DNA of 64,000 bases from Natrialba swarupiae (GTDB taxonomy: Archaea; Halobacteriota; Halobacteria; Halobacteriales; Natrialbaceae): contig NZ_VTAW01000010.1 of the NCBI RefSeq assembly GCF_008245225.1, forward strand, positions 62,001-126,000, written 5' to 3'. A program made the translations under genes and the position numbers. The notes below the pieces were generated by a model. The model worked only from the letters and a program-made list of their open reading frames with translations. It had not been told where the DNA came from and did not search any database. Shown piece by piece: positions 1-43,600 of the stretch. Numbering within the stretch: position 1 is the stretch's first letter; each line of letters opens with the position of its first letter.

Positions 1-120
1 GGGGGTCGCACCCTCCGCGCGAGCTCGTCTCGACGGCGAACGCACGAGGAGTTCTGGGTCGACGACGTCGCGCGGATGCAGCCTCTCAGCCGGCGAGAAG
101 CGACAACTGGCAATGATACC
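1..120. other. Window edge, upstream of prkA1; possible tail of an upstream gene
   Basis: All three forward frames are open for most of this stretch, so coding cannot be assigned. One forward frame runs in from the window edge and ends in a TGA at 122-124 that overlaps the ATG of the next gene (ATGA). Such an overlap is common between co-transcribed haloarchaeal genes, so an upstream partial gene is possible. I recognise no protein family in any frame. Confidence 0.25.
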
Positions 121-2193
121 ATGAACGGAGACATCGAGACGCTCGAGAAGCTAAGTTCGGACTACAAGGAATCGATGCCCGCAGACCTGCGGGAGACGAA
201 ATCGTTCGACTGGTACTTAGCGGAGACCTACGAGGACCCGAAGATCACCCGCAACGCCCACCAGCGCGTCGCAGATATGTTCGATTACTACGGCACGACC
301 TACGACGAAACCGAGGGTGTCGTCGAGTACCAGCTCGCCAGCGAGGATCCGTTAAACGACGGCGAGAACACCTTCTACGGCAAGGTGATCCACCAGTCGA
401 TCCACGAGTTCGTCAACAAGGTGAAATCGGGTGCTCGACGGCTCGGACCCGAACGACGGATCAAGCTCCTGCTCGGCCCGGTCGGGTCGGGGAAGTCTCA
501 CTTCGATAAGCAGGTTCGTCAGTACTTCGAGGATTACACGCTCCGCGAGGAGGGTCGGATGTACACGTTCCGCTGGACGAACCTCTGTGACGTCATCAAG
601 GACCAGGACCCCGCCGACGACACGGTCCGGTCGCCGATGAACCAGGATCCGCTCGTGCTCCTCCCACGCGAGCAACGCCAGCGAGTGATCGACGACCTAA
701 ACGAGCGCCTCGAGGCACCGTACACTATCCAGAACGAGCAGGCACTCGATCCAGAAAGCGAGTTCTACATGGACAAACTGCTGGCGTACTACGACGACGA
801 CCTCCAGCAGGTACTCGAGAACCACATCGAGATCATCCGCTTCATCGCCGACGAGAACAAACGCCAGGGCTTAGAGACGTTCGAGCCCAAGGACAAGAAA
901 AACCAGGACGAGACCGAGTTGACGGGCGACGTCAACTACTCGAAGATCGCCATCTACGGCGAGAGCGACCCGCGTGCGTTCGACTACTCGGGGGCGTTCT
1001 GTAACGCCAACCGGGGGATTTTCTCCGGCGAAGAGCTGCTCAAACTCCAGCGGGAGTTCCTCTATGACTTCCTGCACGCGACCCAAGAGCAGACGATCAA
1101 GCCCAAAAACAATCCCCGGATCGACATCGACCAGGTGATCGTCGGCCGGACGAACATGCCCGAGTACAAGGACAAGAAAGGCGACGAGAAGATGGAGGCG
1201 TTCAACGACCGCACCAAGCGGATCGACTTCCCGTACGTCCTCTCTTATGAGGACGAGGCCAGCATCTACCAGAAGATGTTGAACAACGCCGACGTCCCCG
1301 ACATCAACGTCGAGCCCCACACTCTCGAGATGGCCGGACTGTTCGGCGTGCTCACGCGGATCGAAGAGCCCGACACGGAGACCGTCGGACTGCTGACAAA
1401 GGCAAAGGCGTACAACGGCGAGATCGACGAGGGCGACGACATCGACGTCAAGAAGCTTCGCGAGGAGGCCGCAGCGAAAGCCGAGATCGGCGAGGGAATG
1501 GTCGGCATCTCGCCGCGCTTTATCGGCGACGAGATCGCCGAGGCGATCATGGACTCGAAACACCGCTCGCGGGGCTTTCTCTCGCCACTGACGGTGTTTA
1601 ACTTCTTCGAGGAGAATCTCGAGCATCACGGCTCGGTCCCCGAGGAGAACTTCGAGACCTACTACCGCTATCTCGAGACGGTTCGCGAGGAGTACCGCGA
1701 GCGCGCGATCGAGGACGTCCGTCACGCGCTGGCCTACGACTTAGACGAGATCCAGCGCCAGGGCGAGAAGTACATGGACCACGTGATGGCCTACATCGAC
1801 GACGACACGATCGAGGACGAACTGACCGGCCGGGAACAAGAACCCGACGAGACGTTCCTGCGCTCGGTCGAGGAGAAACTCGACATTCCCGAAGATCGCA
1901 AGGAGGACTTCCGTCAGGAAGTGAGCAACTGGGTCTCTCGGCGCGCTCGAGAGGGCGAGGCGTTCAACCCACAGGACAACGAGCGCCTGCGCCGCGCACT
2001 CGAACGCAAACTCTGGGAGGACAAGAAACACAACATCAACTTCTCCGCGCTCGTGTCGGCCAACGAGTTCGACGACGACGAGCGGTCCTCGTGGATCGAC
2101 GCCCTGATCGAACAGGGCTACTCCGAGGAAGGGGCAAAAGAGGTACTCGAGTTCGCCGGCGCGGAGGTCGCCAAAGCAGAGATCGAAGACTAA
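121..2193 (+). CDS. prkA: PrkA-type serine protein kinase (first of two)
   Basis: This 690-residue protein resembles the PrkA/YeaG family of serine kinases, which carry an AAA-like N-terminal ATPase core and a C-terminal kinase-like part. The P-loop GPVGSGKS is at about residues 119-126, after an acidic N-terminal segment. The frame is open upstream to an ATG at 76, but I chose the ATG at 121 because homologues start just ahead of the LSSDYKES stretch and the 45 nt before it add an atypical basic segment. The gene is followed after one base by a second prkA and then by yeaH/DUF444 and spoVR genes. In bacteria this set is induced in starvation and stationary phase. The role in haloarchaea is inferred from that conservation. 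The substrate is unknown. Confidence 0.88.
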   Translation: MNGDIETLEKLSSDYKESMPADLRETKSFDWYLAETYEDPKITRNAHQRVADMFDYYGTTYDETEGVVEYQLASEDPLNDGENTFYGKVIHQSIHEFVNKVKSGARRLGPERRIKLLLGPVGSGKSHFDKQVRQYFEDYTLREEGRMYTFRWTNLCDVIKDQDPADDTVRSPMNQDPLVLLPREQRQRVIDDLNERLEAPYTIQNEQALDPESEFYMDKLLAYYDDDLQQVLENHIEIIRFIADENKRQGLETFEPKDKKNQDETELTGDVNYSKIAIYGESDPRAFDYSGAFCNANRGIFSGEELLKLQREFLYDFLHATQEQTIKPKNNPRIDIDQVIVGRTNMPEYKDKKGDEKMEAFNDRTKRIDFPYVLSYEDEASIYQKMLNNADVPDINVEPHTLEMAGLFGVLTRIEEPDTETVGLLTKAKAYNGEIDEGDDIDVKKLREEAAAKAEIGEGMVGISPRFIGDEIAEAIMDSKHRSRGFLSPLTVFNFFEENLEHHGSVPEENFETYYRYLETVREEYRERAIEDVRHALAYDLDEIQRQGEKYMDHVMAYIDDDTIEDELTGREQEPDETFLRSVEEKLDIPEDRKEDFRQEVSNWVSRRAREGEAFNPQDNERLRRALERKLWEDKKHNINFSALVSANEFDDDERSSWIDALIEQGYSEEGAKEVLEFAGAEVAKAEIED

Positions 2194-2194
2194 C

Positions 2195-4480
2195 ATGACC
2201 GGCACCGACTACGTTACCGAGGCCGACCGCGCGCTGGAGGAGACCTACGAGGAGCCGATGAGCCTCCCAGCGTACGTCGATCGGATCTTCGAGAATCCGA
2301 CGATCGCCTCCCACGCCTCGAAGTACCTCCTCGAGGCGATCGAAGCCGCCGGAACGCGAACGGTCGTCGAGGAAGGCGAAGAGAAAGAGCGCTACCGATT
2401 CTTCGACGACCCGTACAACGACGGCGAACACGCAATTCTCGGCAACACCGAGGTGCTAAACGGGTTCGTCGACGACCTCAGATCGATCGCGGCGGGCCGG
2501 GCGAAAGACGAGAAGATCGTCTGGTTCGAGGGGCCGACCGCGACCGGGAAATCGGAGCTCAAACGCTGTCTGGTCAACGGCCTCCGAGAGTACTCGAAGA
2601 CGCCGGAGGGGCGTCGGTACACGGTCGAGTGGAACGTCACGACCGCCGACGCCGAGGAGCGGAGCTTGAGCTACGGCGGCGACCCCACCGCCTCGGACGA
2701 CCAACACTGGTACGAGAGTCCGGTCCAGGCACACCCGCTCTCGGTGTTCCCCGAGGACGTCCGCGATCGGATTCTGGCCGATCTCAACGGCGAACTCGAG
2801 GACCACGTCCCCGTCCGAGTCGACGCCCAGCTCGATCCGTTCTCCCGGGAAGCGTACGAGTTCTTAGAGGAGCGGTACCGCCGAGCGGGCAAGGACGAGT
2901 TGTTCTCGGCGATCACCGACGAGACCCACCTGCGGGTGAAAAATTACGTCGTCGACCTCGGACAGGGCGTCGGCGTCCTCCACAGCGAGGACGACGGCCG
3001 CCCCAAGGAGCGACTCGTCGGCTCGTGGATGCACGGCATGCTCCAGGAACTCGACTCGCGAGGACGCAAGAACCCGCAGGCCTTTTCCTACGACGGTGTC
3101 CTCTCGCAGGGCAACGGCGTCCTCACGATCGTCGAGGACGCCGCCCAGCACGCAGACCTGCTTCAGAAGCTGTTGAACGTCCCCGACGAGCAGTCCGTGA
3201 AACTGGACAAGGCGATCGGGATGGACGTCGACACCCAGATGCTGATCATCTCGAACCCGGATCTCGAGGCCCAGCTCAACCAGCACGCCGACCGAAACGG
3301 CATGGATCCGCTGAAGGCACTCAAACGACGCCTCGACAAGCACCGCTTTGGCTACCTGACGAATCTGAGCCTCGAGTGTGAACTCATCAGGCGGGAGCTG
3401 ACGAACGAAAAAAGCGTCTGGGAGGCCGACGGCTACGACGAGTTGGCCGATCGGATCCGCGAGCCGGTGACGGTGACGGTCAAAGGTAGCGACGGCGAGA
3501 CGCGGACAGAAGAGTTCGCGCCCCACGCCATCGAGGCGGCCGCGCTGTACGCGGTCGTCACCCGACTCGACGAGGAAGATCTTCCGAACGGACTCGATCT
3601 GGTCGATAAAGCGTTGATCTACGATAAGGGGTACCTACAGGAGGGAGATACGCGACGCGAGAAAGACGAGTTCGATTTCGCCGACGGCGCCCACGACGGC
3701 GAACACGGGATCCCGGTGACCTACACTCGCGACACGCTCGCCGAGTTGCTCCAGACCGACCGGGAGCGCCACCACGCAGAGTTGCCGGTCGAGGACGTCG
3801 TGATGCCCCGTGACGTGTTAAACGGGATGGCCGAGCAGATGGCCGACGCGCCGGTGTTCTCGTCGGGCGAGCGCTCCGAGTTCGAGAACCGCGTCGTCCC
3901 GGTGAAAAACTACATCTTCGACCAACAGGAGTCGGACGTCATCGAGGCCATTATGCACGAGAAACGCGTCGACGAGGAGACCGTCGCCGAGTACGTCGAA
4001 CACGTCTACGCGTGGGAGACCGACGAACCGCTGTACAACGACCGCGGCGAGGAGGTCGAACCCGATCCACTGAAGATGAAACTCTTCGAGGTCGAACACC
4101 TCGGACGGTTCTCCGAGGAGGAGTACCAGGGCAACCTTCCCAGAGAGAGCGTCCAGAACTTCCGTCGTGAGAAGGTCATCACGTCGCTGAATCGCCACGC
4201 CTGGGAACACCGCAACGAGGACTTCGCCGTCCAGAACGTCGACCTCACCGCAATTCCGGTTATCAAGTCGGTCCTCGAGAGCCACGACTGGGAGGACGTC
4301 AGGCGGACGTTCGAGGACTTCGATCCGCGCCAGTGGGACGACCCGCCGAGCGGGACGGAGACGGAGACCGTCAAGGAGGATACGATCGAAACGATGGTCT
4401 CCGAGTTCGACTACTCCGAGGCGTCGGCCGAACTGACCAGCAGACACGTCATGGGACAGGTGAGCTACCGATGGGACTGA
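2195..4480 (+). CDS. prkA: PrkA-type serine protein kinase (second of two)
   Basis: This 761-residue PrkA paralogue has the P-loop GPTATGKS at about residues 113-120. It shares with its neighbour the short conserved stretch around YNDGE-A-LG just ahead of the ATPase core. The start codon follows the stop of the first prkA by one base, and the 3' end overlaps the next gene by 10 nt, so the four genes look like one transcript. The two kinases have clearly diverged. They may form a hetero-oligomer or act on different targets, but nothing in the sequence decides this. Confidence 0.88.
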
Positions 4481-5799
4481 GAGACGACCTGGAGCGATTC
4501 CGCGAGGTCGGCGAACAGCGCCGCGAGGACCTGGCCGACTTCATCCAGTACGGCGACCTCGGCCAGAGCCGACCGGGTGAGATCAAGATCCCCGTCAAGA
4601 TCGTCTCGCTTCCGGAGTTCGAGTACGACCAGCGTGACAAAGGCGGCGTCGGCCAGGGCGACGGCGGAACGCCCGACGTCGGCCAGCCGGTCGGCCAGCC
4701 CCAGCCACAGCCGGGTGACGAGGACGGCGACGAGGGCGAACCCGGCGAGGAAGGCGGGGAACACGAGTATTACGAGATGGACCCCGAGGAGTTCGCCCAG
4801 GAACTCGACGAGGAACTCGGCCTCGACCTGGAGCCGAAAGGGAAGAAGGTAATCGAGGAGAAAGAGGGGCCGTTTACGGATCTCACGCGGACGGGGCCCG
4901 ACAGCACGCTCGACTTCGAGCGGATGTTCAAGGAGGGACTCAAGCGAAAGCTCGCGATGGACTTCGACGAGGACTTCGTGCGGGAAGTCTGTAAGGTCGA
5001 GGAGATCACGCCTCGCGAGGTCTTCGAGTGGGCCCGCGGGGAGAACCTCCCGGTCTCGATGGCCTGGATCGAGGAAGCGTACGCCGACATTCCCGAAGAG
5101 GAACGGGGGACGTGGTCCTCGATCGAGGCGGTCGAGGAGAACGTCGACCGCCAGTCGGTCCACCAGCAGATCCGCCGCGAAGGGATCAAACACGTCCCCT
5201 TCCGGCGCGAGGACGAACGCTACCGCTACCCGGAGATCATCGAGGAAAAAGAGAAGAACGTCGTCGTCGTCAACATCCGCGACGTCTCCGGCTCGATGCG
5301 GGAGAAGAAACGCGAACTCGTCGAGCGGACGTTCACGCCGCTGGACTGGTATCTGACCGGGAAGTACGACAACGCCGAGTTCGTCTACATCGCCCACGAC
5401 GCCGACGCCTGGCAGGTCGAACGCGAGGACTTCTTCGGCATCCGCTCCGGCGGCGGGACGAAGATCTCGAGCGCGTACGAACTCGCCGCCGAGTTGTTAG
5501 AGGAGTACCCCTGGAGCGACTGGAACCGGTACGTCTTCGCTGCAGGAGACTCCGAAAACTCTTCCAATGACACCGAAGAGCGGGTCATCCCGATGATGGA
5601 GGAGATCGACGCCAACCTCCACGCCTACGTCGAGACCCAGCCAAGCGGCAACGCGATCAACGCGACCCACGCCGAGGAACTCGAGCGCCACTTCGGCACG
5701 GATTCCGACGACGTCGCGGTCGCGTACGTCAACGGCGAGAGCGACGTAACCGACGCGATCTACCGCATTCTCAGCACGGAAGGTGACGACGATGAGTAA
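4471..5799 (+). CDS. YeaH/YhbH family protein (DUF444), VWA-like
   Basis: The 442-residue product belongs to the DUF444/YeaH family, the usual partner of PrkA kinases. After an acidic low-complexity segment rich in Gly, Asp, Glu and Pro, a von Willebrand A-like domain begins. Its metal-binding DVSGSM motif lies at about residues 271-276. The ATG at 4471 was chosen because it starts the conserved [11 protein letters not shown]-terminus; the longer open frame upstream is only a shadow of prkA2. It overlaps the prkA2 stop by 10 nt. VWA proteins paired with ATPases often act as substrate adaptors, which would fit here as inference. Confidence 0.88.
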
Positions 5800-5854
5800 C
5801 GAAGCAAACGTCGTTCGCTTCGAACTCACGGAAATCGGTGATTTTCATGAGTAA
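5792..5854 (+). CDS. Possible 20-residue peptide bridging yeaH and spoVR
   Basis: An ATG at 5792 overlaps the yeaH stop. It opens a 20-codon frame that ends in a TAA inside the first codons of spoVR. Its first residues, [10 protein letters not shown], resemble the spoVR N-terminus [11 protein letters not shown]. It may be a translational-coupling leader or the vestige of an older spoVR start left by a frame change. No homologue is known to me. Confidence 0.3.
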
Positions 5855-7874
5855 TTCAAACTCCAACGCGGACCGGTTCCGCAAACAGGCGATCGCCGGC
5901 GAACTCGAGGAACCGGTGCGCGAAGCCCGGAATCTCGCGGAGAAACTCGGCCTCGAGCCGTACCCGGTCAACTACTGGATCATCGACTACGACGAGATGA
6001 ACGAACTCATCGCCTACGGCGGGTTCCAGTCGCGGTACCCCCACTGGCGGTGGGGAATGCAGTACGACCGCCAGCAGAAACAGGGCCAGTACACCGGCGG
6101 GAAGGCCTTCGAGATCGTCAACAACGACAACCCGGCCCACGCCTTCTTACAGGAGTCGAACACGCTGGCCGACCAGAAGGCCGTCATCACCCACGTCGAG
6201 GCCCACTCCGATTTCTTCGCGAACAACGAGTGGTTCGGCATGTTCACGAGCGGCCGGTCGGACGACGATCAGGTCAACGCCGCCGCGATGTTAGAGCGCC
6301 ACGCTCGAGCGATCGACGAGTACATGTCCGATCCCGAGATCGACCGCGCCGAGGTCGAAAAGTGGATCGACCACTGCCTCTCCCTCGAGGACAACATCGA
6401 TCAACACCGGGTGTTCGAGCGCCGACTCGACGTCGACGGCCCGGCCGCAGAGATCGACGAGGATCTCGCCGAAAAGCTCGACGAACTCGAGCTCTCCGAG
6501 GAGATCAAAGGCGAAGTGTTCGACGAGGAGTGGCTCGAGAAACTCGAGGCCGAGGACGGCCAGGTGACGTTCCCGGAAGAGCCCCAGAAGGACCTACTCG
6601 CGTTCGTCCGCGAACACGGCAAGCAGTACGACGGAGAGTCCGAACGCGCCGTCGAGATGGAGGGGTGGCAACGTGACGTCCTCGATATGATGCGTGCGGA
6701 GGCGTACTACTTCGCCGCCCAGAAGATGACGAAGGTGATGAACGAGGGCTGGGCGGCCTACTGGGAGTCGACGATGATGACCGACGAGGTCTTCGCTGGC
6801 GACGACGAGTTCCTGAACTACGCCGATCACATGGCGAAGGTGCTGGCCTCGGGCGGGCTGAATCCCTACAGTCTCGGCATGGAGCTGTGGGAGTACGTCG
6901 AAAACACCACCAACCGTCGCGAGGTCTTAGAGCGGCTCCTTCGCGTCGAGGGCATATCCTGGCGAAACCTCACCGACGTCGTCGACGTCGACGACGTCCT
7001 CGAGACGCTCGAGCCACCCGAATCGATCGACACCATCACCCGCGAGACGCTCGACCAGCTCGAGGACGCGCCCGACGAGTGGGTCGACCGCGAAGCACTC
7101 GAGCGGGCGCGCGAGGGAGAGATCGACGTCGCGAAGTACCCCTGGAAAGTGCTCACCGACGAGGGGCTGGCGCGCCGCCACTACTCGCTGGTCAAACGAC
7201 AGAACCGCGGGTTCCTCTCGCGGGTCACTCAGAACGAACTCGAGCGGATCGGCCGCTACCTGTTCGACGACGCCCGCTACTCGTCGCTCGAGGAGGCGCT
7301 CGCGGAGGTCGACTTCACTGCAGGGTGGGATCGGATGTTCGACGTCCGGGAGAGCCACAACGACGTGACCTTCCTGGACGAGTTTCTCACCCAGGAGTTC
7401 ATCACGGAAAACGACTACTTCACCTACGAACACTCCCAGGCGACCGGGCAGTTTCACGTGGCAAGCGACGCCGCGGAGGACGTCAAAAAGAAGCTCCTGT
7501 TGCAGTTCACCAACTTCGGCAAACCGACGATCGCGGTCTACGACGGCAACTACAACAACGCCAACGAGCTCCTGTTGGGCCACCAGTACAACGGTGTCAT
7601 GCTCGACATCGGCCAGGCTCGAGAGACCCTCAGACGGATCTTCGAGCTGTGGGGTCGCCCCGTGAACCTGCTGACGATCGTCAAGGAAGTCGACGAACAC
7701 GACATCGAAGTGGCGAAGCGTCGGAATCGCGAACCGGAAGCCGAGGAACGCGGCAAGCTGATTCGCTACGACGGCAAGGAGGTCACGATGGAGGATGTGT
7801 CGTGGAACGAGGTCGAACACCTCGCGGCCGACGACGTCGATTACGACACGAAGCCCGACGAGTGGCTCGCGTGA
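5847..7874 (+). CDS. SpoVR family protein
   Basis: This 675-residue protein matches the SpoVR/YcgB family. The N-terminal region carries the conserved PYPVNYWIIDYDEMNELIAY stretch and the GFQSRYPHWRWGM motif. SpoVR genes are linked to prkA and yeaH in many bacteria and archaea. The biochemical role is unsettled: it is needed for cortex formation in sporulators, but these hosts do not sporulate. I used the ATG at 5847 rather than the GTG three codons earlier. The gene closes the module; the next gene starts 79 nt later. Confidence 0.88.
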   Translation: MSNSNSNADRFRKQAIAGELEEPVREARNLAEKLGLEPYPVNYWIIDYDEMNELIAYGGFQSRYPHWRWGMQYDRQQKQGQYTGGKAFEIVNNDNPAHAFLQESNTLADQKAVITHVEAHSDFFANNEWFGMFTSGRSDDDQVNAAAMLERHARAIDEYMSDPEIDRAEVEKWIDHCLSLEDNIDQHRVFERRLDVDGPAAEIDEDLAEKLDELELSEEIKGEVFDEEWLEKLEAEDGQVTFPEEPQKDLLAFVREHGKQYDGESERAVEMEGWQRDVLDMMRAEAYYFAAQKMTKVMNEGWAAYWESTMMTDEVFAGDDEFLNYADHMAKVLASGGLNPYSLGMELWEYVENTTNRREVLERLLRVEGISWRNLTDVVDVDDVLETLEPPESIDTITRETLDQLEDAPDEWVDREALERAREGEIDVAKYPWKVLTDEGLARRHYSLVKRQNRGFLSRVTQNELERIGRYLFDDARYSSLEEALAEVDFTAGWDRMFDVRESHNDVTFLDEFLTQEFITENDYFTYEHSQATGQFHVASDAAEDVKKKLLLQFTNFGKPTIAVYDGNYNNANELLLGHQYNGVMLDIGQARETLRRIFELWGRPVNLLTIVKEVDEHDIEVAKRRNREPEAEERGKLIRYDGKEVTMEDVSWNEVEHLAADDVDYDTKPDEWLA

Positions 7875-7953
7875 CTCTCCTTTCTTCCTAGACGTTTCGA
7901 ATTAAACTGCCGGAAGGCTTTTACCTTCTATCAATCATGCTCCCACCGGGATC

Positions 7954-8547
7954 ATGGATAGGGATGGGGGAGAGTCCGTCGAGCAGCGACCGAACTCCTG
8001 TTCGTTCGATCTGCCGTCGGTTCTCGTACAGCTCGATGACCGGACGGCAACTGCACAGCGAGAGGCCGTCCGGACGATCCGGGAGAACGTCAAGGAACAG
8101 CCGAGAGTGTGCCTTCCAGCCGTTCCGAAGCTTCGGGCGCTTCTCGCACAGCCGTCTCTGGAGTGTCACGATACGGTCGCCTACTGTCTCGCCGAACTGG
8201 CAGCAGAGTCGCCGGTCGACGTGGCACCCTCGGCCGACGAAATCGTCGCGTTCGTCGACGACGACCCGCCAGCGGCGGTGACCGCGGATCTGCTCCGGTG
8301 TCTCGAGTCGATCGCCACCGCTCGACCGGCAGCCCTCGTCGACCACACCGAGGTGATCGCCACGACCCTCGAGAGCGACGATCCGGACGTTCGGGCCGCC
8401 GCCGCGGCCACGCTCGGCCGCGTTGGCCTCGAGACCGACGCGACGCTCGAGGGGACGCGGGACCGACTCGCGGAACTCGCGGCGGACGACCCAAACCGGG
8501 AGGTCCGTGCCCGTGCACGACGGGCATGTGAACTGATCTCGCGGTGA
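7954..8547 (+). CDS. HEAT-repeat protein
   Basis: The 197-residue soluble product is mostly helical and shows at least three HEAT/PBS-like repeats. Examples are the segments around TAQREAVRTIRENV, the one ending VAYCLAELAAESP, and the repeat around DPDVRAAAAATLGRVGLE. Such proteins are scaffolds or partner-binding modules. No catalytic motif is seen. It lies downstream of the kinase module in the same direction but with its own start, so co-transcription is possible but not shown. Confidence 0.7.
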   Translation: MDRDGGESVEQRPNSCSFDLPSVLVQLDDRTATAQREAVRTIRENVKEQPRVCLPAVPKLRALLAQPSLECHDTVAYCLAELAAESPVDVAPSADEIVAFVDDDPPAAVTADLLRCLESIATARPAALVDHTEVIATTLESDDPDVRAAAAATLGRVGLETDATLEGTRDRLAELAADDPNREVRARARRACELISR

Positions 8548-12247: not shown

Positions 12248-12880
12248 GTGTTCCCGGTGAACAACCGGTACGTCTACGGGGTCGTCGAAGGCGATCCCAT
12301 CGAGTTCGAAACGGACGCCGTCGGCGGTGCGAGCGTCGTCTACACGATTTCACATCGCCGACTCGGCGCGGTCGTCTCCGACATCGACACCACCGATCCC
12401 GAGGAGACCGACGAGGACGCTACACGCCACGACGAGGTGCTTCGACGGATCATGAACGACGGGGACGGTCGAGCGGTCGTCCCGATGCAGTTCGGCATGG
12501 CCTTCGAGAGCGACCGGGCGCTGAAAAACGTCCTCAGGGGCGCACTCCCGGCGTTCAGGCGCGCGCTGAACGACGTCGAGGGTCGCGTCGAACTCGGCGT
12601 CAAGATCGTCCGCGCGGAAGACGCCGACGTCGACGCCGACGCCGTCACAGAGCGCATCGCCGACGAACTCGAGCCGATCGCCGCACAGTCCGTCGGGAAC
12701 GACCTGTTCAGCGACCGCCTCGTGTTGAACCGCTCGTATCTCGTCGATCGCGAGGACCGCGAGGCGTTCGACGAGGCGATCGCCCGACTCGAGGAGGACG
12801 AAGACGACCTCGTCGTCCGCTACACGGGTCCGTTCGCGCCGTACAGCTTCGTCGACGTCACCATCGGAGCCCAGCGATAA
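12248..12880 (+). CDS. gvpF: Gas vesicle protein GvpF
   Basis: This 210-residue GvpF/L-family protein has the usual YVYGVVEGDPIE start, the stretch LGAVVSDIDTTDPEETDED, the VVPMQFGMAFES motif and the terminal RYTGPFAPYSFVDVTIG motif. GvpF is a minor vesicle protein that contacts GvpA during assembly. It opens the rightward F-to-M operon. No ATG is available: start candidates are GTG at 12248 or GTG at 12257, and the second gives an N-terminus closer to the family. The next gene follows by 2 nt. Confidence 0.92.
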   Translation: MFPVNNRYVYGVVEGDPIEFETDAVGGASVVYTISHRRLGAVVSDIDTTDPEETDEDATRHDEVLRRIMNDGDGRAVVPMQFGMAFESDRALKNVLRGALPAFRRALNDVEGRVELGVKIVRAEDADVDADAVTERIADELEPIAAQSVGNDLFSDRLVLNRSYLVDREDREAFDEAIARLEEDEDDLVVRYTGPFAPYSFVDVTIGAQR

Positions 12881-36303: not shown

Positions 36304-36618
36304 TTACGGTCCGGTGGAACCGATGGGTTCGGGAAGTCCGCCGTAGAAGACGACGGCGATGATCATCGTCAGGATGAACATCCCGATCCACATCTGGGCC
36401 GTAATTCCGACCAGGTAGCCGACGCCCATCAGGCCGGTCTTGGAGTTACGTGGCTCGCCGACGAACCACGCGATAATCATGACGTAGACCGGAACCAGGA
36501 TGACGCCGAAGATGAGGTAGGTTCCGATGTTCGGGAAGCCGGTGAGTCCCTCAGTTCCGCCTTCTCCGTGATAGAGGACCCACGAGAGCGCGCTCATGAG
36601 CGTCGCCGGGGCGATCAT
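36304..36618 (-). CDS. Small membrane protein, paralogue 2 of the NrfD operon
   Basis: The 104-residue protein with about three helices has a conserved VLYHGEGGTEGLTGFPNIG N-terminal region, also present in paralogue 1. The start overlaps the nrfD-like stop by 4 nt, so it is co-translated with the membrane subunit. I do not recognise a named family. The position corresponds to small accessory subunits of NrfD-type quinone oxidoreductases. Confidence 0.72.
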   Translation of the reverse strand: MIAPATLMSALSWVLYHGEGGTEGLTGFPNIGTYLIFGVILVPVYVMIIAWFVGEPRNSKTGLMGVGYLVGITAQMWIGMFILTMIIAVVFYGGLPEPIGSTGP

Positions 36619-38021
36619 GCTTCCACCTCCGGTTCGCCCGCGTGCTCATCCGATGGCTCGTGCTCGCCGTGGCCGTGATCGCCACGGAGATGTTCGACTG
36701 CGTGGAGTTCGACGACCGGAACGAGCTTCGAGATGACGAGGAAGAACAACACCACCATTCCGATGGTTCCAGCCAGCGAGAGGAGTTCGATCGCACTCGG
36801 GAAGTAGTCCCCCGGCGTCGCCTCGTAGATGCTAAACGTCGGATACCAGAACCCGGAGAGAACGAAGTACGTCTTCTCGACGAGTGTCGCGATCAGCACG
36901 AGCACGCCCGCCACGATCGCTCGCCCTTTGCTAAACAGCGATGGACGAAGGACCGTCGCGAAGATGAACGCGAGGACGCTGACGACCATCAGCATCGGGA
37001 CGACGTACATCGGGTGCGAGAACTTCGAGTCGGTCGCAGTCGCGTGGTCGACCGTCGGCGCGAAGCTGCCCGCGGTGAGCTGTTGGAGCTGAAGCCAGAG
37101 GAACAGCAGGCAGAAGAAGCCGAGCCACAGCAAGAGCCCACGGAAGATGTCGTCGGTGATGATGTGATCCCAGTCGTAGGCGCGACGGAAGGCGTACGAA
37201 ACCAGGATAACGCCGCTGATCGCCGACGTCAGCGCGATCGTCAGGAACTGTGGACCCTGAATGGCCCCGAACCAGCTCGGATAGTTCGGCAGGACGGCGA
37301 ACAGCCACGGAATCACACCGCCGTGGAGCAACAGCGGCGCCATGATGATGATCGCCAGCGCGACCCACCAGACCATCCGCTCGATGACCTCGTCTTCTTT
37401 CTCGGTGTAACCGAGGGTCAACATATCGTAGACTTTCCCGTAAAGGTCGGGAAACTGGACGCCACCGACCTGTGGCGCAAACGACGGGAGCTGACCACGA
37501 AGTCGAGAGATATCGTATCGGAGCGTCAGCCCGAGGTAGGTCGCCGTCAGCACGAAGTAGGCCGTAATGACCGTCACGTCCCACACCAGCGGCGAGTTGT
37601 TCACCGTGATGTGGTAGTGACCGAGGACGCTCGTGACCATCCGGTCGGGTCGACCCATGTGGACGAGAATGTAGAAGCCGGCCGCCGAGAGGCCAGCCAG
37701 CGTCAACATCTCCGCGAGACGAGCGACCGGCATGTACCGATCCATGCCGAGCAGTCGAACGGCCGCCGAGAGGATGATCCCGCCGTGGGCGATCCCGACC
37801 CACCAGATGAACGCGCCGATGTACAGCCCCCAGGTGACGCCGCCACCGCTGCCCCAGTCGGAGAGGCCGGTGACGACCATCCCGTCTCTGAGCTGAATCA
37901 TCCATCCGACCAGGAACGCTCCGAGAGCGAGCGCACAGACGCCAAAGAGGACGAAGTACTTCTTGCTGAATCCCTCGGTCGGTCGGAGGATGTCTTCTTC
38001 GGTGGGTGTCTTCGTGCTCAT
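36615..38021 (-). CDS. NrfD/PsrC-type membrane subunit
   Basis: The 468-residue protein with about ten membrane helices matches the large NrfD class (PsrC, ActC). It has a long N-terminal helix, the GLYIGAFIWWVGIAHGGIIL motif and the late YVVPMLMVVSVLAFIFATVL helix. These subunits bind menaquinone and pass electrons to or from an attached Fe-S subunit. The His-rich tail (HGHGEH) is a local feature. It overlaps both neighbours by 4 nt. Confidence 0.88.
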   Translation of the reverse strand: MSTKTPTEEDILRPTEGFSKKYFVLFGVCALALGAFLVGWMIQLRDGMVVTGLSDWGSGGGVTWGLYIGAFIWWVGIAHGGIILSAAVRLLGMDRYMPVARLAEMLTLAGLSAAGFYILVHMGRPDRMVTSVLGHYHITVNNSPLVWDVTVITAYFVLTATYLGLTLRYDISRLRGQLPSFAPQVGGVQFPDLYGKVYDMLTLGYTEKEDEVIERMVWWVALAIIIMAPLLLHGGVIPWLFAVLPNYPSWFGAIQGPQFLTIALTSAISGVILVSYAFRRAYDWDHIITDDIFRGLLLWLGFFCLLFLWLQLQQLTAGSFAPTVDHATATDSKFSHPMYVVPMLMVVSVLAFIFATVLRPSLFSKGRAIVAGVLVLIATLVEKTYFVLSGFWYPTFSIYEATPGDYFPSAIELLSLAGTIGMVVLFFLVISKLVPVVELHAVEHLRGDHGHGEHEPSDEHAGEPEVEA

Positions 38022-39649
38022 AGCGACACCCCGGCGTCACCGACGGTCCCCTCGTCGAGGACTTCTTTGCGGTCGTCGGTCTGACCGATGTCGTCGTAGG
38101 CGACCGGACCGTCGACCTGTTCGGCGTTCGGTCCGGGGTTCTGTCCGATATACGTGACGTTCGGATTCGTACCGATATCCTCGAGCAGCTTGAACGACGA
38201 CCCGGCGACCCCAGCGTACTGACGGAGTCGAAGGTTGGCGTCGTCTTCGCTCCCGTCACCGAGTTGTAACTCGGCCAGTACGTCCTCGCTCTCGAGATCG
38301 ACGTACTCTTCGAGCGCGTCGACGGATTCGAGGACCGTCTGTTCTTGCTCGAGGATGGTGTCGTTCGTCTCCTCGGGCGGCTCTTCTCTGTCGCTGACGA
38401 TCTCGATCGCCTTCATGATGCTGACGAGTTCTCGATCGAGGTCGTCGTCTTCGTCATCCTCGAACGCCTCGATCGCCGACTCGAGATCGTCGTCTTCGCT
38501 GAGAATGCCGTCGATCGCCTCCGGCGACGGGACGTTGCGGACGATGTCGATAATTGCTCGGCTTTTGCTCGGATACTCGCCGTGCTGGTGCGCGTCGCTG
38601 CGTTCGTCGTTGACGTCGCCGAACTGGATCGCGTCCGGTGGACAGGCTTCCTCACAGGCCGTCGTTCCGATGCGGTCGTCGCCCATCAGGCCGTCCTGTC
38701 GGGTCGGACACATCGTACACTTGCTCATGACGCCACGGGGTGCGCGACTGTCGACCCATCGACCGCGCTCGTCCATCATGTGATCGCCTTCTTCGCCGGG
38801 TTCGACACCCATCTGATCGGCGATTTCTTCTTCGGTGGCTTCCTGGGGTTCGTCCCACTGGAAGTAGTTGACGCCGTACGGACAGGCGACCTGACAGTAC
38901 CGACAGCCGATACAGACGTCGTAATCCGTCAGAACGAGACCGTCCTTTTCACGGGTGTGGCGCGCCGTCGTCGGACAGACCTTCTCACAGGGTGCGTCTG
39001 TACAGTGTTGACACGGTCGGACGAGCATGTTGTAGCCGTCCATCCCGCCTCGAACGTCGGGGGCCGGCGAGCCGCCTTCGGTGGTGTCGTCCTCGAACGC
39101 GAGGACGTACATCCAGTTGACGCCCTGGTCGGTCTGGTTCTCTTGCTGACAGGCAGTCACGCAGGAGAGACAGCCGTCACACCGCTCGAGGTCGATCGTC
39201 ATCCCCCACTGGGTGCCGTCCGGTTCTTCGACCTGCTGTTGGGTATCCGCGACTGCCGCCTCGGGTTCGCCGTCGTCGACGGTGCCCCACGCACCGAGTC
39301 CGACGGCCGCCGCGCCGGCCCCCATCTTCTTCATCGCGTCGCGCCGACTGTCTTCGCCGTCACCCTCGAACTTCGAGAGCATCCGGGAAACCGTCCCTTC
39401 CTCCGCAGCCTGCATTTCCTCGTAGGCTTCCTCCGTCGGGCGGTTGTCCTCGCCGAACTCCTCCATCACGTCGTCGTGATACATCTCGTGGAACTCGGCT
39501 TCGGACAGCTCGCCTTTGGTGACGCGCATCGCGTCTTTGGCCATCTCCATACCGAGGTCGCTGTCGTACTCGGTATCGTCGAGCATCGTCTCGAGCTCTC
39601 CCTCCCACTCCTCGCCGAGCGGGTGGAACGATTCGTCGTCCGCACTCAT
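38018..39649 (-). CDS. Four-cluster ferredoxin subunit with internal Tat-like signal
   Basis: The 543-residue protein carries four [4Fe-4S] motifs, namely CDGCLSCVTAC from residue 157, CQHCTDAPCEKVCP, CIGCRYCQVACP and CTMC with a later CEEACP. This is the PsrB/ActB pattern. An RRDAMKKMGAGAAAVGLGAW segment at residues 102-121 follows a 100-residue acidic lead. It looks like the extended Tat signal known in molybdopterin/Fe-S proteins, so the subunit may face outside. The C-terminal 180 residues are acidic. It is the first gene of a four-gene operon; no molybdopterin catalytic subunit is present. Confidence 0.85.
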   Translation of the reverse strand: MSADDESFHPLGEEWEGELETMLDDTEYDSDLGMEMAKDAMRVTKGELSEAEFHEMYHDDVMEEFGEDNRPTEEAYEEMQAAEEGTVSRMLSKFEGDGEDSRRDAMKKMGAGAAAVGLGAWGTVDDGEPEAAVADTQQQVEEPDGTQWGMTIDLERCDGCLSCVTACQQENQTDQGVNWMYVLAFEDDTTEGGSPAPDVRGGMDGYNMLVRPCQHCTDAPCEKVCPTTARHTREKDGLVLTDYDVCIGCRYCQVACPYGVNYFQWDEPQEATEEEIADQMGVEPGEEGDHMMDERGRWVDSRAPRGVMSKCTMCPTRQDGLMGDDRIGTTACEEACPPDAIQFGDVNDERSDAHQHGEYPSKSRAIIDIVRNVPSPEAIDGILSEDDDLESAIEAFEDDEDDDLDRELVSIMKAIEIVSDREEPPEETNDTILEQEQTVLESVDALEEYVDLESEDVLAELQLGDGSEDDANLRLRQYAGVAGSSFKLLEDIGTNPNVTYIGQNPGPNAEQVDGPVAYDDIGQTDDRKEVLDEGTVGDAGVSL

Positions 39650-39844: not shown

Positions 39845-40519
39845 TCAGTTCGTCGGCAACTGTCCGTCGAGCGGTTCGTCGTCCTCGAGGCCCGGAAGAT
39901 CCTCGACGAACCGTTTGACGATCGACTCCTCCGCCCGGTGAAGCGTCTCGCTACAGGTCGATTTGGCGATCCCGAGATGCTCTGCGAGTTCGGTCAGCGA
40001 ACACCGGCGTGGCGTATCGTAGTAGCCTTGTTCGACGGCCGCGACGACGACTTCGAGCTGGCGCTCAGAGAGGACCTGACTCTCGTGTAACCGGTCGCTG
40101 ACGTTCTCGATTCGATACTGGAGACCGAACCGCTCGAGTTGCTCGGCGAGTTCCGCCAGGCGTTCTCGAGAGCCGGTGACGTCGATCGTCGCCTCGCCGT
40201 CCTGGATCTCGACGGGGAGTTCGATCGGCATTCCCGATTCTCGCGAGGAGAACAACAGAAGCGGTGCCGTCGTCTCGAAGTGGATCGTCGCCTCGTTGTC
40301 GCTCCACTCGACGAGCGTCAACTCCGTGATCTGGGGATGGTCGGTGATGTCGTCGACGATATCAGTGACGTTCCGTCCGGTAATCCGAACCAGTGCGAAG
40401 CCGGATTCGGAGCCGGGAACCGCGGCCAGCACGCGAAACGTGGCGTCCGGATACGCCACGGACACCTGCTGGATCCAGACCTGTTCGGGCATCGTCACCG
40501 TGAGTGTCGCCTGGGCCAT
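39845..40519 (-). CDS. HTH-10 (Bat/DmsR-type) transcriptional regulator
   Basis: The 224-residue regulator ends in an HTH-10 domain: LSERQLEVVVAAVEQGYYDT, then LTELAEHLGIAKSTCSETLH. Its N-terminal sensor-like domain resembles those of DmsR-type activators. DmsR controls DMSO/TMAO reductase operons in Halobacterium and sits next to them. Here the regulator lies directly upstream of the ferredoxin-NrfD operon in the same direction. The start at 40519 was chosen because the longer frame has no homology. Confidence 0.84.
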   Translation of the reverse strand: MAQATLTVTMPEQVWIQQVSVAYPDATFRVLAAVPGSESGFALVRITGRNVTDIVDDITDHPQITELTLVEWSDNEATIHFETTAPLLLFSSRESGMPIELPVEIQDGEATIDVTGSRERLAELAEQLERFGLQYRIENVSDRLHESQVLSERQLEVVVAAVEQGYYDTPRRCSLTELAEHLGIAKSTCSETLHRAEESIVKRFVEDLPGLEDDEPLDGQLPTN

Positions 40520-40562
40520 TGGAGGTGAACACCTACTGTCTAAGGCTGAGAACCCACAGTTA

Positions 40563-40574
40563 CGAATATATTCG
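40563..40574. promoter_or_regulatory. Perfect 12-nt palindrome with TATA core
   Basis: CGAATATATTCG lies in the divergent gap between the HTH-10 gene and the DUF2249 gene. It is 44 nt from the regulator start and 82 nt from the DUF2249 start. Being symmetric, it could serve as a TATA box in either direction or as an operator. Confidence 0.4.
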
Positions 40575-40655
40575 CCGTCATTCCTACCGACTGGGAACCC
40601 GTCACGAACCGATTCGGCCGAAGATCCAACTGGCGACGGAACCGTTCGCTCGCTC

Positions 40656-40883
40656 ATGACGTCTCCAGCCGCCGACCGAACGCTCGACGTCAGAGAGATC
40701 GATGGCCCACCGTTCGACGACATCGTCGCCGCGCTCGACGACCTTGCGGACGACGAACGGCTCGAGTTGATCGCCCGGTTCGAGCCGGCTCCGCTCTACG
40801 GCGACCTCGACGGCCGGAGATTCGACCACGACAGCGAGAAACGAGACGACGGGACGTGGCACGTCCTCCTCGAACACGCTTAG
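40656..40883 (+). CDS. DUF2249-like small protein
   Basis: The 75-residue protein has the pattern of the DUF2249 domain: an early LDVREIDGPPFDDIVAALDD strand-helix, then ERLELIARFEPAPLYGDL. Such proteins often neighbour denitrification and other anaerobic-respiration genes. That agrees with the redox genes on both sides. Function is not established. Confidence 0.75.
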   Translation: MTSPAADRTLDVREIDGPPFDDIVAALDDLADDERLELIARFEPAPLYGDLDGRRFDHDSEKRDDGTWHVLLEHA

Positions 40884-41030: not shown

Positions 41031-41672
41031 TCAGTTCAGTCCGGAGGGATACTCACCGGTCTTCCGGTAGTGAGAGACAACCGTGGCGAACGCGGCGAGC
41101 TGGAGCGCGACGACGAGAACGATCGTGACCAGGTACAGCCAGTGCAGCGGGTCGTCGGACGGGAACCCGGGTCGGAGATAGGCCCTGTCGTAGATGTGGA
41201 CGGTGACGAGCCAGAAGATCGTGTACGCTCCGACGGTCTGATGCCACTTCCACGCCTTTCCGCCCATGTAATCGTAGGCGCTGTTGTTCGAGGTAGCCGC
41301 GAGCCCAACCGCGATGATCACGGCCACGAGCGAACCGAACGCCCAGGGACTCATGTCGGCCAGGTAGCCGACGACGTCCCAGTCTCTCGCCTGGAACACG
41401 AAGAGCAGGTGAACGACACTCCAGATAGCGAACCAGATCCCTAACTCTGCCCGCCAGTTGACGGGGAAATTCCCCGAGAACCGGCGTCTGATAGCGGGCC
41501 AGAGCCGTACGGTTGGCCCGACGATCATCACCAAGCCGAGGAGAAACCACGGAACTGCACCCACGACCCGCTGCTCGTGATATCCAGCCACCCACAGTAA
41601 CACGGCGAAGACGACACTTCCGGCACCCACAACCAGATGGTGGGTGAGTTCGTTGTTCGTATCTACCGACAT
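41031..41672 (-). CDS. Ferric-reductase-like membrane protein
   Basis: The 213-residue protein with about six membrane helices matches the ferric reductase-like transmembrane domain (MsrQ/YedZ type). Candidate heme-ligand histidines are in WSVVHLLFVFQARDWD, GKAWKWHQTVGAY and LVTVHIYDRAYL. It probably carries b-type heme and passes electrons from quinol or flavin. No partner such as MsrP is adjacent. An AT-rich TATA-like element lies about 30 nt before the start. Confidence 0.78.
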   Translation of the reverse strand: MSVDTNNELTHHLVVGAGSVVFAVLLWVAGYHEQRVVGAVPWFLLGLVMIVGPTVRLWPAIRRRFSGNFPVNWRAELGIWFAIWSVVHLLFVFQARDWDVVGYLADMSPWAFGSLVAVIIAVGLAATSNNSAYDYMGGKAWKWHQTVGAYTIFWLVTVHIYDRAYLRPGFPSDDPLHWLYLVTIVLVVALQLAAFATVVSHYRKTGEYPSGLN

Positions 41673-41936: not shown

Positions 41937-42102
41937 TATCGTAACAACTGAATCGGTGTACACACCGATCACCGATCCGTCGGGCGATCGGGTATGCATT
42001 GACTTTCATACGGTCTGCCGTGCCGATGTACCAGTGCAACCGCACGCAGTCCTGCAGTTTCACCGTCGACGACTGATAACAGCCAGTATCTGTGGCTACT
42101 AT
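41937..42102 (+). repeat. Repeat family B, copy B4, interrupted by a family C element
   Basis: The left part runs TATCGTAACAACTGAATCGG to GCATTGACTTTC and the right end is CTGTGGCTACTAT. Between them, at 42008-42089, sits a whole family C element. In the intact copies B2 and B3 the two parts are only about five bases apart. Confidence 0.8.
42008..42089. repeat. Repeat family C, copy C5, nested in B4
   Basis: Ends ATACGGTCTGCCGTG and AACAGCCAGTAT, with a degenerate inner stem. It interrupts B4, which shows it arrived after B4. Confidence 0.75.
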
Positions 42103-42202: not shown

Positions 42203-43372
42203 ATGTACAACGAGATACTCGTCCCGACGGATGGGAGCGACGTAGCCGAGCGAGCCGGAACCGTCGCCGTTCAAATGGCCGAACTCTTCGGCGCGGATCT
42301 GACCGTCGTCTCCGTTCGAGAGCCGGGCACCGAAGAGCAAGCAGAACGCGCCGTGGGAGATATCGAGGAGGCCGCGATCGAAGCCGGACTCTCCCCTCAA
42401 ACCGAGATTATCGACGACGAGAAATCGGCGATCCACCAGGCGATCATCGACTACGCCGAGGACCACGGCGTCGACGTCGTCGTGATGGGGACCCACGGCC
42501 GGACGGGCATCAGTCGATTCCTGCTCGGGAGCGTAGCCGAACAGTTCCTTCAGGAGTCGCCGGTTCCAGTCGTGACCATTCACGAGGATACCGTCATCGA
42601 CTTCGAGATAGACAACGTCCTCGTTCCGACCGACGGGAGTGAGGGGAGCGAGGCCGCTACGGAGCACGCGATCGATCTCGTGACCGAAACCGGTGGGACG
42701 ATCCACGCGCTCTACGTCACCTCCGGACCCGAAGCGGAATCGTCGCCGACCGACGACGTACGTGATCGGGGCGAAGCCGCCGGTGTGGAGGTCGTTTCGG
42801 CTACACGAAGCGGTCGACCACACGAGGCGATCGCCGGGTACACGGCAGAGGCTGAGATCGACGTGGTCGTGATGGGGACCCACGGCCGCACCGGTCTCAG
42901 ACGATACCTGCTCGGGAGCGTCACAGAACGCACAGTTCGGTTCTCACCAGTCCCAGTCGTCTCCGTGAAACCGGAGTCGGCCGGCGCCACCGTCGAGTTC
43001 CTCGACTACGAAGTCATAGCGGACAACGACTGGTCGCTGGAGGACGACGACCTCTTCGAGAAGGCGGCCGAGGCCGACCTGACGGCGGAGACCCACGGGA
43101 CGATGACTGTCGAAAAAGGGGAGTACATCCTCGAGGCGGCCGAGGCCGAAGGCTACGACTGGCCGTTCTTCTGTCGAGGTGGTGGCTGTATCAACTGTGC
43201 AGCGACACTGGTTGATGGTGAGGTCGAGATGGAGGTTAACCGTAGCCTCTCCGACGAGGAGGTAGACGAGATGAACCTGCGGTTGACCTGCGTCGCCACG
43301 CCGACGACTGACGAAGTAAAGCTGGTCTACAACGCCAAACAGCTCGACCAGCTCCGGGACCGAATTCTCTAG
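42203..43372 (+). CDS. Usp-Usp-[2Fe-2S] ferredoxin fusion protein
   Basis: The 389-residue protein has two universal-stress-protein domains (about residues 1-130 and 135-262). Each has the ATP-binding G-x2-G-x9-G-S pattern, seen as MGTHGRTG, then LLGSV. The last 125 residues form a plant-type [2Fe-2S] ferredoxin with the acidic N-terminal insert typical of haloferredoxin. Cluster cysteines are at about 324, 329, 332 and 363 (CRGGGCINC, then LTCV). The two folds are normally separate proteins. The frame is continuous, so this is a true fusion. The TAG stop lies in repeat A4. Confidence 0.88.
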   Translation: MYNEILVPTDGSDVAERAGTVAVQMAELFGADLTVVSVREPGTEEQAERAVGDIEEAAIEAGLSPQTEIIDDEKSAIHQAIIDYAEDHGVDVVVMGTHGRTGISRFLLGSVAEQFLQESPVPVVTIHEDTVIDFEIDNVLVPTDGSEGSEAATEHAIDLVTETGGTIHALYVTSGPEAESSPTDDVRDRGEAAGVEVVSATRSGRPHEAIAGYTAEAEIDVVVMGTHGRTGLRRYLLGSVTERTVRFSPVPVVSVKPESAGATVEFLDYEVIADNDWSLEDDDLFEKAAEADLTAETHGTMTVEKGEYILEAAEAEGYDWPFFCRGGGCINCAATLVDGEVEMEVNRSLSDEEVDEMNLRLTCVATPTTDEVKLVYNAKQLDQLRDRIL

Positions 43373-43457
43373 TACCGTTCCAAACGTCGACTGCCGGGTC
43401 GAACCGACCCGACGCCACCGAGTTCGACCCTGCAGTGCAGGCTTGCCAAAGCACTAT
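43369..43457 (-). repeat. Repeat family A, copy A4
   Basis: An 89-nt copy from CTAGTACCGTTCCAAACGTC to CTTGCCAAAGCACTA. The first CTAG contains the stop codon of the Usp-ferredoxin gene. The other end abuts B2. Confidence 0.8.
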
Positions 43458-43538
43458 AGTAACAACTGAAACGATTTACACACTGATCGCACAGCTGTCG
43501 TGCGATCAGGTGTGCATTGACGGTCAGTGGCTACTATA
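43455..43538 (+). repeat. Repeat family B, copy B2
   Basis: An 84-nt element with ends TATAGTAACAACTG and CAGTGGCTACTATA and inner stem CTGATCGCAC/GTGCGATCAG. It abuts A4. The A-to-B junction uses the opposite A end from that in the A1-B1 pair. Confidence 0.85.
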
Positions 43539-43600
43539 GGTAACCGACTCGGTGTACCGGCGAACCGACGGACGGATCGCACGGATTTCGCCGATCGTTC

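Follow-up and report, generated by a model that had tools for sequence, protein, structure and literature searches.

We found that a single open reading frame in Natrialba swarupiae encodes two universal-stress-protein (Usp) domains followed by a haloarchaeal [2Fe-2S] ferredoxin, a protein that we call USF, and that its gene is in most cases kept beside a gene for a membrane protein, here c1, which by its sequence profile belongs to the ferric-reductase/MsrQ-STEAP superfamily of b-heme proteins. USF is a new combination of known modules, with a membrane partner previously undescribed. The chance that USF and c1 work as an electron-transfer pair is, in our estimate, about even. The window is the whole stretch of DNA that was analyzed, 64,000 nucleotides long.

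One open frame joins two Usp domains to a haloferredoxin

An earlier note, made from the sequence alone, had described one uninterrupted frame with two Usp domains and a [2Fe-2S] haloferredoxin, and this was borne out by translation, by Pfam and NCBIfam (NF041393) matches, and by alignment with the ferredoxins of known structure 1e0z and 1doi. The frame runs for 389 open codons from the ATG at 42203; an alternative TTG lies 21 bases upstream, and the orthologs align at the M-Y start. Its features are as follows.

42203..43372, plus strand: USF gene, Usp-Usp-haloferredoxin fusion, 389 aa plus stop (translation, HMM matches, same architecture at 25 loci)
42203..42580, plus strand: Usp domain 1, residues 1-126 (PF00582; tandem-Usp fold matches 3loq, 3cis, 3ab8)
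42488..42532, plus strand: ATP motif 1, GTHGRTGISRFLLGS, residues 96-110 (conserved in 22/22 aligned family members)
42593..42970, plus strand: Usp domain 2, about residues 131-256 (second PF00582 stretch)
42875..42919, plus strand: ATP motif 2, GTHGRTGLRRYLLGS, residues 225-239 (conserved in 22/22 aligned family members)
42989..43369, plus strand: haloarchaeal [2Fe-2S] ferredoxin domain with acidic N-terminal segment, residues 263-389 (NF041393, 1e0z, 1doi, Foldseek)
43172..43291, plus strand: cluster cysteines C324, C329, C332, and C363, CRGGGCINC...LTC (sequence; invariant in the family alignment)

USF matched Pfam Usp (PF00582) in two stretches with an E value of 1.6e-54 (184.7 bits against a cut-off of 24) and Pfam Fer2 with an E value of 1.7e-13. 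Residues 263-388 scored 202 bits against the NCBIfam model Frdxn_Halo (NF041393), which passes its cut-off of 150, and residues 263-389 aligned end to end with the ferredoxins of Halobacterium (1e0z) and Haloarcula (1doi), acidic N-terminal segment included. The G-x2-G-x9-GS motif is whole in both Usp domains, and the cluster ligands C324-x4-C329-x2-C332-x30-C363 are complete in this protein and in each of the 22 aligned family members; the ATP pattern in each Usp domain and the four cluster cysteines, both reported in the earlier note, thus hold across the family. Only about six residues link the end of the second Usp domain (near 256) to the start of the ferredoxin (263).

An AlphaFold model of USF, built from a 21-row alignment, reached a pLDDT of 79.9 and a pTM of 0.71. 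Confidence is low at the ATP loops and at the cluster loop, as may well be expected when ligands are left out of the modeling. Foldseek matched the model to the tandem Usp proteins 3loq (Archaeoglobus fulgidus), 3cis (Rv2623), and 3ab8 (TTHA0350) and to the haloferredoxins 1e10 and 1doi, the last with a TM-score of 0.86 by target length. The three tandem Usp proteins share with the model two Usp domains in the same tandem fold, and Rv2623, like USF, carries the ATP motif in both; USF differs from them in its added C-terminal ferredoxin. The Usp module of USF is best explained as a pseudo-dimer with two predicted ATP sites.

The fusion is patchily distributed, conserved, and hidden under a ferredoxin label

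A search for this domain order among 391 haloarchaeal genomes of the class found the three-domain protein in 22, three of which hold two copies, giving 25 loci. The frame is uninterrupted at these loci, at 50-89% identity. Among the near orthologs (76-89%) are those of Natronosalvus hydrolyticus, Natronorubrum halalkaliphilum, and two Natronococcus; finished plasmids of both Natrialba magadii and Natronococcus occultus carry some of the more distant ones (about 50-57%). Hosts that carry names belong mostly to soda-lake genera, which describes the named hosts and is not a rule. No three-domain ortholog has an internal stop, which excludes a stop or frameshift at residues 255-270. That an assembly error, frameshift, or chance read-through joined two genes is ruled out by the orthologous open frames at 25 loci in 22 genomes, finished plasmids among them, and we treat its probability as negligible. 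With dN/dS values of 0.07-0.38 per domain, all three domains are under purifying selection.

The ferredoxin domains of USF group together in one clade (support 98/95) that excludes both the canonical carrier and the other ferredoxin fusions, in a tree whose outgroup, an approximate cyanobacterial-type ferredoxin, served for root placement only. The same genome has a separate gene for a standalone haloferredoxin of the canonical kind (C49:60500-60880, 213 bits). USF and the haloarchaeal ferredoxins (1e0z/1e10, 1doi; NF041393) have the whole domain, the acidic segment, and the four cysteines in common. However, whereas the canonical protein stands alone at about 128 aa, the USF domain is the C-terminal part of a 389-aa fusion, falls in a separate clade, is encoded by an extra gene, and has another cluster loop, mostly CR[GA]GGC[IV]NC as against CRAGACANC.

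Two of the three-domain proteins, at L110 14001-15248 (NMAG_RS22510) and L111 12963-14192 (NATOC_RS23120), are named only "ferredoxin Fer" in RefSeq, apparently because the equivalog model NF041393 spans just the C-terminal third. This label hides a distinct three-domain protein. The earlier note had called the architecture undescribed, and although databases carry such proteins under that name, we found no paper describing it in the open-licence literature; a description in a subscription journal is possible. We class USF as a new build from known modules because the literature lists Usp fusions to permeases and exchangers, not to ferredoxin. In the haloarchaeal Usp-transporter fusions (amino-acid permease, Na+/H+ exchanger; PMC7601130, PMC12159084), Usp is an added module as in USF, but the fused partner in USF is an electron carrier and not a transporter. 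The nearest published analogue is DnaJ-Fer of Thaumarchaeota and plants (PMC3564930), in which ferredoxin is likewise fused to a stress or regulatory domain.

Further haloferredoxin fusions were noticed elsewhere, with domains named by eye: J-Fer at L138, L141, and L142, HTH-Fer at L139 and L140, and two winged-helix-like domains with Fer at L125-L127. Their recurrence suggests that this haloferredoxin has been used repeatedly in regulatory fusions. USF differs from DnaJ-Fer, J-Fer, and HTH-Fer in that its partner domain is a tandem Usp and its gene is linked to a membrane FRD-type protein.

USF is linked to a putative b-cytochrome

The best clue to function is this membrane neighbor, which the earlier note had overlooked:

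41031..41672, minus strand: c1, 213-aa membrane protein, FRD/MsrQ-STEAP-type, probable b-cytochrome; neighbor of USF and divergent from it here

A c1 gene (213-216 aa) adjoins USF at 21 of the 25 loci. The two genes are divergent at eight (the window and seven near relatives) and lie on the same strand with c1 downstream at 13, where c1 usually follows USF by 75-320 bases. Since gene order differs yet the neighbors stay together, the adjacency has been kept through rearrangement. One potassium-channel-like gene lies between USF and c1 in Natronococcus occultus, and the downstream c1 copy in G364 is split into two frames. No c1 was found near USF at the remaining four loci (L046, L047, L049, L058), and one genome with USF, G344, has none anywhere. 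By genome, c1 is present in 21 of 22 with USF and in 10 of 369 others, these ten holding c1 relatives without USF. Every genome with a high-scoring type-I c1, 21 in all, also has USF (Fisher p 3e-26, without correction for phylogeny; most genomes of the sample come from one family, and the statistic ignores shared ancestry). Among 393 genomes drawn evenly from the phylum, c1 relatives occurred only in the window's own family, and a class-wide search placed them in further haloarchaeal families as well.

RefSeq names c1 hypothetical, no Pfam family covers it, and its profile found no relative among PDB sequences. Compared by hhalign with MsrQ, the c1 profile gave a probability of 96% and an E value of 4.6e-9. 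The c1 ortholog at L048 matched the MsrQ HMM at 2.4e-6, below the curated cut-off, as was a match of a c1 ortholog to the Ferric_reduct HMM (0.0018). In the curated MsrQ test (NF003831), c1 scored 27.2 bits at best, short of the cut-off of 130. R74, H88, and H159 are invariant across 16 c1 sequences, and the spacing of 14 between R74 and H88 is that of R77 and H91 in MsrQ. In the short FRD forms YedZ and STEAP, an arginine replaces the first heme histidine while the surface-proximal pair is kept (PMC3591440); c1 carries this signature, with the arginine in TM3 and the surface-proximal histidine pair. It has five clear TM segments and a weaker TM5. An AlphaFold model from a shallow alignment was poor (pLDDT 53), and its structural matches, NOX5 (Z 5.8) and STEAP1 (Z 4.8), are too weak to be relied on. 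Scanning the genome itself and the phylum with the MsrQ HMM gave almost nothing.

Heme binding by c1, predicted from these residues, makes it a probable b-cytochrome. This is the first assignment for a membrane family annotated as hypothetical. Its closest known relatives are MsrQ/YedZ and STEAP, with which it shares the TM3 arginine in place of the first heme histidine, the surface-proximal histidines, and the lack of a dehydrogenase domain. It probably works like MsrQ or STEAP, though the curated test does not class it as MsrQ; in contrast to MsrQ, its partner gene encodes a ferredoxin fusion, and no MsrP was listed beside USF or c1 in two annotated neighborhoods. Because c1 is without the flavin/NADPH domain of its NOX-type relatives, it would need an external electron donor.

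An exported ferredoxin accompanies c1 or USF in some genomes

At three loci of one genus (L094, L096, L099), which have a type-II c1, more distant in sequence, and no USF, a gene for an exported-type [2Fe-2S] ferredoxin lies directly upstream of c1, 10-51 bases apart. Its product has a twin-arginine, lipobox-like N terminus and a Fer2 domain by Pfam. Above 140 bits this protein was found in 13 of the 391 genomes, all 13 of which have USF or c1; it was not found in the window's genome. In G344, the genome with USF and no c1, its gene precedes USF by about 1.1 kb, a stretch that holds one Usp-like gene, and in G253 it lies about 2 kb from a USF copy that has no c1. Fer2 domains fused to FRD proteins have been described (PMC3591440). 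It is chiefly because USF, c1, and the exported ferredoxin share neighborhoods pairwise that we argue for an electron path leading from USF through c1 and, in some species, outward.

A proposed role for the pair, and its alternatives

We propose that USF is a nucleotide-controlled ferredoxin that exchanges electrons with its own membrane b-cytochrome, c1, a proposal that we would back and doubt in equal measure. USF would be a cytosolic electron carrier responsive to stress and energy state, whose ferredoxin part would make contact with c1 and whose docking or turnover would be set by the adenine-nucleotide state of the Usp module. Electrons would probably pass from reduced ferredoxin to the surface-proximal heme of c1 and on to a quinone or an acceptor at the outer face, which in some relatives may be the exported [2Fe-2S] ferredoxin. 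The pair could then vent low-potential electrons under stress, as an overflow or maintenance valve.

Control of electron transfer by nucleotide binding had been suggested in the earlier note. Two points make such gating plausible: the ATP sites are both kept, next to a linker of few residues, and Rv2623, a tandem-Usp homolog, works by binding ATP (PMC2682197). In its most specific form, with ATP/ADP on the Usp module switching the fused ferredoxin as donor to the MsrQ-like c1 and electrons going onward to the exported ferredoxin in some species, we rate the scheme as unlikely. If true, it would describe a haloarchaeal nucleotide-gated transmembrane electron wire in which ferredoxin replaces the flavin/NADPH domain of NOX-type enzymes. 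By what route haloarchaea reoxidize ferredoxin is not settled (PMC8305020), and little is understood of what Usp proteins do at the molecular level. USF with c1 offers a defined two-gene system for measuring nucleotide control of electron flow.

The [2Fe-2S] domain might instead read the redox state of the cell or of c1 and alter ATP binding or partner choice by Usp, which would make Usp the output and the ferredoxin a switch rather than a bulk carrier. Such a sensor would fit the fusion of the same ferredoxin to helix-turn-helix and J domains, its clade separate from the canonical carrier (98/95), and the many Usp genes near USF. We consider it somewhat unlikely, as the conserved linkage is to an electron-transfer-type membrane protein and not a regulator, and the domain has kept its carrier-like fold, its acidic segment, and its four cysteines. 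The Usp domains could also merely localize or stabilize the ferredoxin at c1 or a nearby transporter under stress, with no nucleotide gating. Usp domains of haloarchaea are frequently found fused to membrane transporters or next to them (PMC3102087), and P-type ATPase genes occur in 12 USF neighborhoods, but both ATP motifs are whole in the 22 aligned members, beyond what a pure scaffold needs, and we hold this reading to be decidedly unlikely.

Electron supply to oxoacid oxidoreductases, the role that the earlier note had given for haloferredoxin, is unlikely to be the main one because the genome has the canonical standalone protein and USF is an additional gene. A reading of USF as a second general ferredoxin for oxoacid:ferredoxin oxidoreductases, with Usp as a passive passenger, can draw on the equivalog cut-off that USF passes and on its RefSeq name. 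The distinct cluster loop, the patchy spread (22 of 391 genomes), and the c1 linkage all speak against it as well, and we judge it very improbable.

Surroundings of the pair

A regulator gene lies near the pair:

39845..40723, minus strand: HTH_10/BAT-type regulator just downstream of c1 (Pfam HTH_10, 6e-20)

It is at most a possible local regulator; it is neither conserved with USF and c1 nor clustered with the other loci. The genes at 36615-39649 (minus strand) encode a respiratory-type module made up of an NrfD membrane protein and a 4Fe-4S protein that has a Ferredoxin_N domain; no molybdenum subunit was noticed beside it. We considered a link between these genes and USF but left it out of the model, as a similar pair occurs near USF in one other genome (L058) and not in the rest.

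The neighborhoods of L095, L097, and the 13 tandem loci hold many Usp genes and a P-type cation ATPase, along with CBS and pyridoxamine-oxidase-like genes, and call to mind an energy-stress cluster. On account of the Usp, P-type ATPase, CBS, and PPOX neighbors, we considered a dormancy module like mycobacterial DosR and set it aside as a resemblance only. A repeat of about 85 bases lies just downstream of USF (43455-43539), with a diverged copy between c1 and USF (41938-42008); it has about 40 copies in the genome and looks like a MITE. Farther off in the window are PrkA/SpoVR-type genes at its start (76-8547, a sequence impression only) and a gas-vesicle gene, GvpL/GvpF, at 12248-12880.
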